DNA from: Thermus arciformis
Lineage (GTDB): Bacteria; Deinococcota; Deinococci; Deinococcales; Thermaceae
Direction of reading: 5' to 3'
DNA length: 64,000 nucleotides
Assembly (NCBI RefSeq): GCF_900102145.1
Contig: NZ_FNBC01000007.1
Location: 1 to 64,000, forward strand
A model generated the notes under the pieces. The model made no database searches. It saw only the letters and a list, made by a program, of their open reading frames with translations, and had not been told where the DNA came from. Below, in pieces: positions 45,005-49,342 of this stretch (position 1 is its first letter; each line of letters opens with the position of its first letter). The position numbers were made by a program, and so were the translations under genes.

Positions 45005-45010
45005 TACCAT
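45005..45010 (+). promoter_or_regulatory. Extended -10 box of the histidine kinase operon
   Basis: TGCTACCAT, an extended -10 with TACCAT at 45005-45010, ends 9 nt before the ATG at 45020. No good ribosome site is present, so the leader is minimal. Confidence 0.5.
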
Positions 45011-45019
45011 TGGGGCAAG

Positions 45020-47914
45020 ATGCGGCTTGTGGGGCAGATGGAGGTCCTGGCCCGGTTTCAGCGGGCGCTTCTCAAGGACCTCGAGCCCACCCAGATCCTC
45101 CGGAACCTCCTGGAGGTGGCCACGGAGGAGGGGGTGGAGCGGGCGGCCCTCTTCCTCTACCACCCCGAGACCCGGGAGCTCGTGGGGGAGGTGGCCTCGG
45201 GGCGGGGGCGGCACTACACGGTCTCGGCCATCGCCTTGCCCCTCTACGCCAAGGGGCCGGTGCAGGAGGCTTTTTTCGCCGAGGGGCCCTTGAAGCTTAG
45301 GGAGGAGTGGCTTCTTCCCGTGGTGGGCGAGGAGGCCTCCTTCTGCTGGGCCGACCCCGAAAGCCGCTGCGCCGAGCGCCCCCGGGCCACCCGGGAAAGC
45401 CGCCCCTTGGTCTGCCCCTCCTGCCCCCGGTTCGCCGCCAAGGGGGTGCTGGCCCTGGAAGGGGTTCCCCCCTCCCTCCAGCCCCTTCTCCCCCTCCTCG
45501 CCCAGCTCACCGCCTTGGCCCTAAAGAATGGGGAGCTCTTCGCCCAGAGGAACCAGGCCCTGGCCCGCCTTTCCCGGCACGTGGAGGCCCTGGCCCACGT
45601 GAGCGCCCTCACCCGCGAGGTGGCCCGGGCCCTGGACCCCAACGCCGTGCTGGAGACCCTGGCCCGGGCCCTGGTGGAGCGCCTTGGCTTTTACCGGGCC
45701 ACCGTGGCCCTGGTGCGGGGGGAGAGCCTCCTCGGCCACCTCACCGTGAAGGGAAGGCAGGTCTTCTGGACCGAGGGGAAAAGCGCCCTTCACCTCGCCC
45801 TGGCCTCCTCCCCCGACCCCATGGCCCGGGCCGCCCGGGAGCGGCGAAGCCTCCTGGTGCCCCGGGAGGCCCTTCCCCCTGGGGTGGCCCAGGGGATGGG
45901 GCCCACCGTGGCCTTCGTGCCCGTGGTGGCCGAGGAGGCCGTCCTCGGGGTCTTGGCCGTGGACCACGGGCCCGGAGGGCCTCCCGTTTCCGAAGAAGAG
46001 GTGCGCTACCTGGAGCTTCTGGCCGGGGCGGCGGGGGTGGCCTTCCGCAACGCCGAGCTCTACCGGGAAAAGACCCGCCTCTCCTTAGCCCTGGCCGCGG
46101 AGAGGACCCGGCTTTCCCAGGTCCTGGAGGAGCTTCCCGACGGCGTGGTGGTCCTTTTCGGTGAGCGGGGTTTCGCCAACGGCCGGGCCCGGGAGGCCTT
46201 GGGCTTGGGGGCGGAGGTGGCCTTGGAGGACCTTCCCGCCGCCTTGGCCCCCGCCTTGGAAGGGGGGAGGCTGGAGCTCGCCCTGGGCGGGGCCACCTAC
46301 AGCGTGCGGGGGCGGCAGGTGGGGGAGGCGAGGATTTTGGTCCTCCACGACATCACCGAGCGCACCCGCATGGAGCGGGCTCTAAGGGACCAGGTGGCCT
46401 TCACCCAGGCCCTGGTGGACGTGGCCCAGGAGGCCCTCCGCCAGCGGGACCTTCCCTCCTTGGGCCGGGCCATCGTGGATCGGCTCTTGGCCCTCTTCGC
46501 CGCCCAGGAAGGGGTGCTCCTTGCGGAAAGCGGGGGGAAAGGGGAGGTGCTCTACAGCACCTGTGCCCTTCCCGAAGAGCTTCCCCGGCCCAACCTCCTG
46601 GAGCGGGCCCTGGGGGAGGAGGCCCCCTTGGGGGTGGAGGCCTTGGCCCCAGAGGACTGCGCCCTGGCGGAGGCCTTGGGCCTAAAGAGCGCCCTCGTGG
46701 TCCCCTTCCGGACGCAAGGGTTCCGGGGGGCCCTCCTCCTTGGCTACCGCCAGGGGCGGCGCTTTTCCGAGAGGCTCCTCCACCGCCTGGGGCAGGTGGC
46801 CACCCTCCTCGCCCTGGTCTTGGAGAAGGGGCGCTTCCTGGCCCTTCTGGAGGCCGAGGAGGAGCGCCTGAAGGCCCTTCTGGAGCACTCCCAGGACGTG
46901 GTCTACGTGCTGGACCAAGAAGGCTTCATCCGCTTCGCGAGTCCCAGCGTGCGCACCCTTTTGGGCTACGAGCCCGAGGGGTACAAGGAGGCCCCGGTGA
47001 AGGCCTTGGACTTCGTCTACCCGGAGGACCGGCCCAAGGCGGAAGCCCTGCTTGGGGAGCTCCTTTCCCAGCCGGGGCACACCCTCACCGGGGAGTTCCG
47101 GGTCCTCCACAAAGACGGCACCCCCATCCCCATGGAGGCCTGGGGGCGGAACCTCCTCCAGGACCCCAGGGTGGGGGGGGTGGTGGTGGACTTGAGGGAC
47201 CTCAGGCCCAGGCTGGAGGCGGACCGGGTCAAGGGGGAGTTCATCGCCGCGGTGAGCCACGAGCTCCGCACCCCCCTCGCGGTGATCATGGGCCTGGCGG
47301 AACTCTTGCAGGAGGAGGCCCTTTCCCCAAGCGCCCAGGAGTCCGTGGAGCTCATCATGGAAAGCGCCTTCCGCCTCAAGACCATGGTGGACAACCTCCT
47401 GGACACAAGCCGCCTCGAGGCGGGCCGCTTTGAGATCTCCCGGCGCCCCGTGCACCTTAAGCCCCTCCTCCTGGACCTGGCCCGGAGCTTCCAGGGGGTG
47501 GCCCGGCTTTCCGGGGTGGAGTTCCGGGTGGAACTGGAGGAGCTCCCCCTCGTGGAGGTGGACCCGGACCGCATCGTCCAGGTGGTGGGAAACCTCCTCT
47601 CCAACGCCTTCAAGTTCACCCCGCCCGGGGGGAGGGTCACCCTCTCCGCCAGGCGGGTGGGGGATGAGCTTTTCCTGGAGGTGGCGGACACGGGCCCCGG
47701 CATCCCCAAGGAGGAGCTTCCCCGGCTTTTCCAGCGCTACGCCCGGGCCAAAAACGCCCGCGCCCGGGGGGTTTCCGGCACCGGGCTTGGCCTTTTCATC
47801 TCCAAGCACATCGTGGAGGCCCACGGGGGGCGGATAGAGGTGGAAAGCGAGGAGGGCAGGGGAAGCCTCTTCCGGGTTATCCTACCCTTGTATGGCCCGC
47901 ATCCTCCTCGTTGA
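45020..47914 (+). CDS. Multi-GAF/PAS sensor histidine kinase with a four-cysteine cluster
   Basis: 964 residues, no membrane segment, so cytoplasmic. Order by inspection: GAF (about 1-185), GAF (200-360), a short PAS-like segment (to 440), GAF (450-600), PAS (615-730, VVYVLDQEGFIRFASPSVRTLLGY), HisKA with phospho-His747 (AAVSHELRTPLAVI) and HATPase (NLLSNAFKFTPPGG, DTGPGIP, SGTGLGLFISK). Within the first GAF, Cys109, 117, 132 and 135 (spacing CX7CX14CX2C) could hold zinc or an iron-sulfur cluster. The response regulator gene overlaps the 3' end by 23 bp. ATG at 45020 follows the -10 box closely. Confidence 0.92.
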   Translation: MRLVGQMEVLARFQRALLKDLEPTQILRNLLEVATEEGVERAALFLYHPETRELVGEVASGRGRHYTVSAIALPLYAKGPVQEAFFAEGPLKLREEWLLPVVGEEASFCWADPESRCAERPRATRESRPLVCPSCPRFAAKGVLALEGVPPSLQPLLPLLAQLTALALKNGELFAQRNQALARLSRHVEALAHVSALTREVARALDPNAVLETLARALVERLGFYRATVALVRGESLLGHLTVKGRQVFWTEGKSALHLALASSPDPMARAARERRSLLVPREALPPGVAQGMGPTVAFVPVVAEEAVLGVLAVDHGPGGPPVSEEEVRYLELLAGAAGVAFRNAELYREKTRLSLALAAERTRLSQVLEELPDGVVVLFGERGFANGRAREALGLGAEVALEDLPAALAPALEGGRLELALGGATYSVRGRQVGEARILVLHDITERTRMERALRDQVAFTQALVDVAQEALRQRDLPSLGRAIVDRLLALFAAQEGVLLAESGGKGEVLYSTCALPEELPRPNLLERALGEEAPLGVEALAPEDCALAEALGLKSALVVPFRTQGFRGALLLGYRQGRRFSERLLHRLGQVATLLALVLEKGRFLALLEAEEERLKALLEHSQDVVYVLDQEGFIRFASPSVRTLLGYEPEGYKEAPVKALDFVYPEDRPKAEALLGELLSQPGHTLTGEFRVLHKDGTPIPMEAWGRNLLQDPRVGGVVVDLRDLRPRLEADRVKGEFIAAVSHELRTPLAVIMGLAELLQEEALSPSAQESVELIMESAFRLKTMVDNLLDTSRLEAGRFEISRRPVHLKPLLLDLARSFQGVARLSGVEFRVELEELPLVEVDPDRIVQVVGNLLSNAFKFTPPGGRVTLSARRVGDELFLEVADTGPGIPKEELPRLFQRYARAKNARARGVSGTGLGLFISKHIVEAHGGRIEVESEEGRGSLFRVILPLYGPHPPR

Positions 47915-48269
47915 GGACGAGCCCCTGGTGGCCCACATGGTGCGGCGCCTCCTGGAACGGGCGGGCCACCAGGTGGACTGGGCCCCTTCCGGCCAGAGGG
48001 CCCTGGAGCGCTTCGGGGAGGGCTACGACCTCCTGATCTGCGACCTGGTGATGCCGGGGATTTCCGGCCTCGAGGTCATCCGCAAGGTCCGGGAGCGGAG
48101 CCCCATCCCCATCCTGGCCCTTTCCGCGAGCGTTTCCGCCCAAAGCCAGGAGGAGGCCCTGAGGGCCGGGGCCCAGGCCTTCTTGGGCAAGCCCTTTGAG
48201 GGCCAGGCCCTCCTGGCCCAGCTGCAGCGGCTCCTTGGCTATACTGGGGGGGAAGGGGGAAACCTATGA
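47892..48269 (+). CDS. Single-domain response regulator (CheY-like)
   Basis: 125 residues, a receiver domain only: acidic pair in LLVEDEP, phosphoacceptor Asp near residue 52 (LLICDLVMPG), Ser/Thr switch in ILALSAS and Lys in GKPF. There is no output domain, so it must act on another protein. Its gene overlaps the kinase by 23 bp and the TRAP binding protein by 4 bp, making the kinase its obvious partner. Confidence 0.94.
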   Translation: MARILLVEDEPLVAHMVRRLLERAGHQVDWAPSGQRALERFGEGYDLLICDLVMPGISGLEVIRKVRERSPIPILALSASVSAQSQEEALRAGAQAFLGKPFEGQALLAQLQRLLGYTGGEGGNL

Positions 48270-49342
48270 AAAGGAGGAGCTTCCTCAAGGGTCTTGGCGT
48301 GGGCGTGGCGGCGAGCCTTTCCTACGGGGCCTTTGCCCAGGCGAGCCCCCAGGTGCGCTGGCGGCTCGTCTCCAGCTACCCGAGGAGCCTGGACACCCTC
48401 TATGGCGGGGCCGAGGACCTGGCCAAGAGGGTAGCGGAGCTCACGGGGGGGCGCTTCCAGATCCGCGTCTACCAGGCGGGGGAGATCGTTCCCGGGGGGC
48501 AGGTGCTGGACGCGGTGCAGCAGGGCACGGTGGAGGCGGGGCACACCTACGGGCCCTTCTACGTGGGCAAGAACCCGGCCCTGGCCTTTGACGGGGGGGT
48601 GCCCTTCGGCATGACCTACCGGCAGCACAACGCCTGGATGCTCCTGGGTGGGGGGCTTGAGCTCCTCCGGGAGGTCTACGCCGACTTCGGGGTGGTCCAG
48701 TTCCCCGGGGGCAACACCGGGGCCCAGATGGGGGGGTGGTTCCGCAAGGAGATCAAGGGCCTCGCCGACCTCAAGGGCCTCAGGATGCGCATCCCTGGCC
48801 TCGGGGGCCTGGTGATGGGGAGGCTTGGGGTGGTGCCCCAGACCCTGGCCGCCGGGGACATCTACCCCGCCTTGGAGCGGGGCACCATTGACGCCACGGA
48901 GTTCTCCGGCCCCTACGACGATGAGAAGCTGGGCTTCTACAAGGTGGCCAGGTACTACTACTACCCCTCCTTCTGGGAGCCCAGCGCCCAGCTCTCCTTC
49001 CTGGTCTCCCAGCGGGAGTGGGCCCGCCTGCCCAAGGAGTTCCAGGAGGCCTTCCAGGTGGCCGCGGCGGAGGTCAACCTCACCATGATGGCCAAGTACG
49101 ACGCGCAAAACCCCCCGGCCCTCCAGCGCCTCCTCAAGGCGGGGGTGCGCCTCAGGAAGTGGCCCAACGAGATCCTGCGGAAGGCCCTGCAGGAGGCCCA
49201 GGCCCTCTACGAGGAGCAGGCGGCCAAGGACGCCACCTACAAGAAGGTCTACTCCGCCTACTGGGCCTTCCGGAACGAGCTCTACCGCTGGTTCGCCGTG
49301 GCCGAGCTGGGCTACGAGACCTTCGCCTTCCCCGCCGTTTAG
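48266..49342 (+). CDS. TRAP-type substrate-binding protein (DctP family), TAT-exported
   Basis: 358 residues. The N-terminus KRRSFLKGLGVGVAASLSYGAFA is a twin-arginine signal, so it is exported folded. The mature part has TRAP solute receptor marks: LAKRVAELTGGRFQIRVYQAGE, LKGLRMRIPGLGG (substrate-carboxylate Arg), ALERGTIDATEFSGPYDDEKLGF. Mono- or dicarboxylates such as lactate or 2-oxoacids are typical ligands. No DctQ/DctM permease gene is nearby; it is the last gene of the kinase-regulator operon. It converges on the formate-dehydrogenase genes with a 4-bp overlap. Confidence 0.9.
   Translation: MKRRSFLKGLGVGVAASLSYGAFAQASPQVRWRLVSSYPRSLDTLYGGAEDLAKRVAELTGGRFQIRVYQAGEIVPGGQVLDAVQQGTVEAGHTYGPFYVGKNPALAFDGGVPFGMTYRQHNAWMLLGGGLELLREVYADFGVVQFPGGNTGAQMGGWFRKEIKGLADLKGLRMRIPGLGGLVMGRLGVVPQTLAAGDIYPALERGTIDATEFSGPYDDEKLGFYKVARYYYYPSFWEPSAQLSFLVSQREWARLPKEFQEAFQVAAAEVNLTMMAKYDAQNPPALQRLLKAGVRLRKWPNEILRKALQEAQALYEEQAAKDATYKKVYSAYWAFRNELYRWFAVAELGYETFAFPAV

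Follow-up and report, generated by a model that had tools for sequence, protein, structure and literature searches.

A conserved four-cysteine loop in the first GAF domain of a Thermus histidine kinase is a candidate single-CW metal-binding module related to the two-CW domain

Introduction

In a stretch of 64,000 nucleotides from Thermus arciformis (the window), a gene for a soluble histidine kinase encodes four closely spaced cysteines near the N-terminus of its product. The question raised by this locus is what kind of site these cysteines form, where the motif comes from and whether it could have a sensory role. On balance we think that the beta5-beta6 hairpin of the GAF1 domain houses a metal-binding module of the single-CW type, which shares its origin with the C-terminal half of the two-CW domain, and that the four cysteines most likely form one metal centre. 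The features on which the argument rests are the following.

45020..47914, plus strand: soluble histidine kinase of 964 residues (open reading frame 45020-47911, stop codon 47912-47914)
45020..45580, plus strand: GAF1 domain, residues 1-187, which bears the insertion (1ykd profile match, AlphaFold2, Foldseek)
45326..45436, plus strand: beta5-beta6 hairpin insertion, residues 103-139, with the single-CW four-Cys motif (AlphaFold2)
45344..45346, plus strand: codon of Cys109, which is followed by the invariant Trp110 (invariant in 30/30)
45368..45370, plus strand: codon of Cys117 (invariant in 30/30)
45413..45415, plus strand: codon of Cys132 (invariant in 30/30)
45422..45424, plus strand: codon of Cys135 (invariant in 30/30)

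Results and discussion

The protein is a HisKA-type histidine kinase, with HisKA (5.3e-20) and HATPase_c (4.8e-32) both recognised by Pfam along with PAS (PAS_3 at residues 639-712) and two GAF-type stretches (GAF_2 at 205-342, 8.8e-18). We read the domain order as GAF1 - GAF2 - PAS-like - GAF-like - PAS - HisKA - HATPase_c, where the PAS-like and the third GAF-like regions are putative. The initial annotation took the kinase to be cytoplasmic, and this is supported by the lack of any transmembrane segment, since no 19-residue window exceeds a Kyte-Doolittle score of 1.97. The start at 45020 is consistent with the orthologue alignments. A TACCAT at 45005-45010, 9 nt 5' of the kinase ATG, resembles the -10 boxes of leaderless mRNAs, and the kinase mRNA may itself lack a leader.

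Cys109, Cys117, Cys132 and Cys135 were found exactly as first described, with the spacing CX7CX14CX2C, and the span of 45344-45424 given to them is exact because their codons start at 45344, 45368, 45413 and 45422. The loop had been called Arg-rich, which holds as well (6 Arg, no Lys). The kinase has 6 Cys in total and 4 of these fall within 27 residues (p ~ 0.001 for random placement), while the remaining two are not invariant (Cys515 in 22/32 sequences and Cys547 in 25/32, versus 32/32 for each motif Cys). Conservation in orthologues had been set beforehand as one of two tests of the cluster and the outcome was strong, as all four Cys are kept in 30/30 aligned GAF1 domains, a set composed of Thermus orthologues, two paralogues at ~48% and order-wide homologues down to ~30% identity. 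They are among only 19 invariant columns of 187 (p ~ 8e-5 over the domain and ~0.002 within the loop alone), these being A16, L17, L46, A84, F86, P100, C109, W110, P113, C117, P121, R128, C132, C135, F138, G142, L144, L166 and A167. Across all the aligned sequences there is not a single insertion or deletion between the motif cysteines.

The kinase is widespread in the genus. All 27 of the genus genomes searched have a match to it and 26 of these cover the N-terminal domain, the sole exception being a 65%-complete assembly in which the kinase gene is in pieces. Shortened copies in T. parvatiensis (G016, L034/L046) and T. scotoductus DSM 8553 (G017, L033/L044) keep the four Cys. In these two the operon is partly deleted, with the kinase truncated and the regulator partial or missing, thus the system is dispensable in some species. 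Two genomes have in addition a paralogue at ~48% (L035, L036), again with the four Cys present. A Thermus genome as a rule has a single copy of the exact motif, in this kinase. A direct protein query of genome contigs gave no match, an alignment query of genome contigs gave matches in Thermus alone, and a plasmid search for relatives of the GAF1 domain found none. A profile run against 111 genomes of the phylum extended the set of homologues beyond Thermus, to further genera of its family and to two more families of the order, all with an identical CX7CX14CX2C; these include two kinases at 30-33% identity with a predicted N-terminal membrane helix (L084, L085). The domain is not universal: in one large genus of the family many genomes are without it, as is most of the remaining phylum. 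When the GAF1 profile was taken to other phyla, most of the matches were GAF domains of the common kind, in which the Cys loop is missing.

The cysteines had been assigned to a first GAF domain, and this is correct judging from profile and structural models, with no support from Pfam, which found 0 families in residues 1-187 and no GAF above its gathering score (homologues L078 and L083 were sub-threshold). The best PDB relative by sequence profile is the CyaB2 GAF structure 1ykd (E 2.5e-6). The AlphaFold2 model of GAF1, built from the 30-sequence alignment, has a pLDDT of 88.1 and a pTM of 0.84, with pLDDT of 91-94 over residues 111-150, and a Foldseek search with it returned GAF domains at a probability of 1.00 (a phytochrome-type sensor kinase, PtsP, PDE5A and others). 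The host domain is thus modelled as a GAF fold. When the Thermus sequences alone were used for the PDB profile, the only matches were to the zinc loop of USP30, at E 0.3, and these were rejected. The model places the Cys loop between strands 96-102 and 140-147, with short helices at 109-116 and 128-134, the second Cys pair being at the end of the latter. In GAF2 of the same kinase the beta5-beta6 hairpin is only a few residues long.

A rigidly predicted loop of this kind could have a purely structural explanation, where a Zn2+ ion merely pins a long hairpin insertion in a thermophile protein and any sensing relies on a small-molecule ligand of the GAF pocket. The conserved CPxC knuckle, the thermophilic host and the lack of an obviously redox-specific feature would all agree with this, and inserted loops often contain Zn(Cys)4 sites. 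However, CX7C is an unusual pair for a zinc site, and the same motif recurs in the two-CW modules of many other phyla, and in standalone small proteins, which do not have the long hairpin. We consider this explanation possible but less likely than our own.

The initial annotation did not recognise the spacing, and this can now be amended, since the two-CW domain (NCBIfam NF045718) has it in its second, C-terminal half, which reads CW-x6-C-x14-C-x2-C. Standalone two-CW proteins have this pattern as their second half with the Cys and Trp invariant (in a set of 17 sequences), and the exact spacing and the Trp are found in 30/30 of the GAF1 domains. In both, an aromatic residue is located 2-3 positions past the last Cys, and the two-CW domain is likewise found in sensor proteins and within GAF hairpins. 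The Thermus form differs in that the N-terminal two-CW half, which has a CW of its own and three Cys in all, is missing, as only ~6 residues separate beta5 from C109. The window domain gives no hit to NF045718, and L084 and L085 reach 15.0 and 14.8 bits over model positions 41-76, where the curated cut-off is 35 bits. Because the domain fails this model and is without the first half, we file the Thermales/Deinococcota form, by its sequence, as a single-CW, GAF-embedded variant and not as a two-CW domain.

The connection came from the profile search into other phyla, where L102, a membrane-anchored GAF-like diguanylate cyclase, has the same spacing following a second Cys cluster, the pair of clusters being NF045718. 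Searching the phylum of L102 gave a family of proteins (L170-L177) and two long kinases (L191, L198), and in all of these, as in L102, a complete two-CW domain is found in the same beta5-beta6 GAF hairpin. Matches to NF045718 were obtained for L191 (6.5e-8), L198 (2.5e-6) and L175 (6.7e-5).

Could the likeness be accidental, with the loop an unrelated four-Cys motif specific to the order? This would agree with the loop-only HMMs, which gave no cross-match to two-CW above the decoys, and with the comparison of the Thermus loop to the standalone two-CW proteins by hhalign, which was gapless but only at P = 0.025. Against it, the spacing is identical, the hairpin is the same in L102, L191 and L198, and L198 and the window loop have CW-x2-P-[DE]-[ST]-R-C in common. 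Comparing the Thermus loop plus the following strand to the GAF-embedded two-CW domains by hhalign gave P = 2.5e-5 over 43 gapless columns, and an HMM of the loop and strand found L198 at E 4.6e-5 and L175-L177 at ~5e-4 with the best decoy at 0.011, though part of this score is due to the shared GAF strand. We accept the homology only by way of these GAF-embedded relatives and the following strand. Common origin is further favoured because the insertion site is equal, which is itself evidence. Convergence is unlikely, and the Thermus loop and the two-CW second half likely have a common origin. No solved relative of the two-CW domain was found in the PDB. The AlphaFold2 model of a standalone two-CW protein was poor (pLDDT 69) and was kept out of the fold search.

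Two-CW modules are found in many other phyla, in diguanylate cyclases, HD-GYP-type proteins and kinases (domain names read from sequences), as well as in small standalone proteins. L191 and L198 are kinases of ~970 residues with an N-terminal CXXCH, a HAMP-like region, a GAF domain with an inserted complete two-CW, another GAF, PAS and the kinase domains, and so possibly have two redox inputs in one protein. L128, a protein of 163 aa that joins an XRE-like helix-turn-helix to a downstream two-CW domain, is a possible transcription factor under direct CW control. Single CW halves also occur upstream of a GAF domain, not inserted in it, in other phyla (L135 and G244:C76:316362-316802), therefore single-CW modules are not confined to Deinococcota. 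The second Cys is absent from the two-CW second half of L122, L131 and L178 (Tyr in L178), and given these natural three-Cys versions four ligands are not universal.

For the Thermus loop we consider metal binding likely. Because the Thermus form keeps all four Cys without the first half, the CW half would seem to be a self-sufficient four-Cys site. As to the metal, Zn and Fe-S are alike compatible with the sequence, and nothing that we computed separates them. An Fe-S or other redox-active centre we put at somewhat short of an even chance, while a zinc site, whether structural or a redox switch, is possible but less probable. A redox setting would suit the module because the L191 and L198 kinases carry the N-terminal CXXCH (c-haem-like) motif. 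An O2-labile cluster is unsupported by the distribution, since genomes with the two-CW domain do not lack a haem-copper oxidase more often than others (COX1 in 11/25 of the carriers outside Deinococcota versus 111/269 genomes overall). A literature search found no publication on the two-CW domain and no demonstration of metal in any two-CW protein.

The idea of the initial annotation, an iron-sulfur or zinc centre that detects oxygen, NO or redox state, agrees with all of our observations, and redox or gas sensing by the loop is plausible. The four invariant Cys would hold one metal centre where the last strands of the GAF sheet end, near the C-terminal helix through which the domain continues into the remaining kinase. 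If this centre is changed by oxidation, by attack of a ligand, or by gain or loss of the metal, GAF1 could be altered, which in turn would change autophosphorylation at HisKA and then phosphotransfer to the overlapping response regulator. A metal-free thiol switch, where oxidation forms disulfides between Cys pairs and so changes kinase activity, is improbable: all four Cys are invariant and Cys in an Arg-rich loop could have a low pKa, but four Cys at fixed spacing, together with W, P, R and F residues that never vary, look more like the ligands of a folded site than like one or two disulfides.

Two genes immediately downstream form an operon-like layout with the kinase.

47892..48269, plus strand: single-domain response regulator of 125 residues, overlapping the kinase by 23 nt (PF00072 at 4.6e-26)
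48266..49342, plus strand: TRAP-type solute-binding protein of the DctP family with a Tat-like signal, overlapping the regulator by 4 nt (PF03480 at 1.1e-59)

No output domain was found in the regulator. The DctP gene is alone, without TRAP membrane subunits downstream of it, because the next genes are on the other strand. Wherever the kinase is intact in the Thermus context loci, and also in genome G071, the order kinase-regulator-DctP is found together with the divergent acyl-CoA dehydrogenase/ETF genes. Downstream of the paralogous kinases L086 (G019) and L087 (G005) there are two single-domain response regulator genes in a row.

Comparison to known sensors gives precedents rather than a match. 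AirS of Staphylococcus aureus, a [2Fe-2S] sensor kinase (PMC4601167), also has a four-Cys cluster in its N-terminal region starting with CX7C, but its CX7CXCX17C spacing, on which the comparison is based, is not that of the window kinase. CSK/Hik2 is, like the window kinase, soluble with an N-terminal GAF; its [3Fe-4S] cluster has a single Cys ligand, C19, and no Cys motif according to its authors (PMC6949291), whereas the window has four motif Cys. The PAS sensor NreB is without the window motif as well. Since CX7CX14CX2C is found in none of these three, function cannot be transferred from them, and the known [Fe-S] GAF/PAS kinase families were rejected on spacing as a home for the window kinase. 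Metal centres in GAF sensor domains include the mononuclear iron of NorR and the haem of DosS/DosT (PMC4601167); NorR uses mostly Asp/Arg ligands with one Cys, and neither has a four-Cys loop. Within the genus, DnrS of Thermus thermophilus is a proposed oxygen regulator of nitrate respiration with an N-terminal GAF and a proposed redox centre (PMC5748679, PMC6282519). Though it shares the N-terminal GAF it is a transcription factor and not a kinase, and it appears to be without the motif because the one exact copy that a Thermus genome has is, as a rule, that of the kinase.

Conclusions

Taken at its broadest, the CW half-module could be a self-contained four-Cys centre for sensing redox state or gases that has been grafted into the GAF beta5-beta6 hairpin, making a new class of GAF metal sensor which is single-CW in the Thermales/Deinococcota kinases and complete two-CW in diguanylate cyclases and haem-linked kinases elsewhere. 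We put this forward as a tentative idea that is possible but short of probable. The two-CW domain is a named entry in NCBIfam, and the Thermus GAF1 represents a minimal, thermostable half-module in a soluble protein. With such a half-module and the overlapping regulator gene, the metal content, the redox behaviour and the control of the kinase become directly measurable. If the centre proves to be redox-active, this would explain a class of signalling proteins that is found in several phyla.
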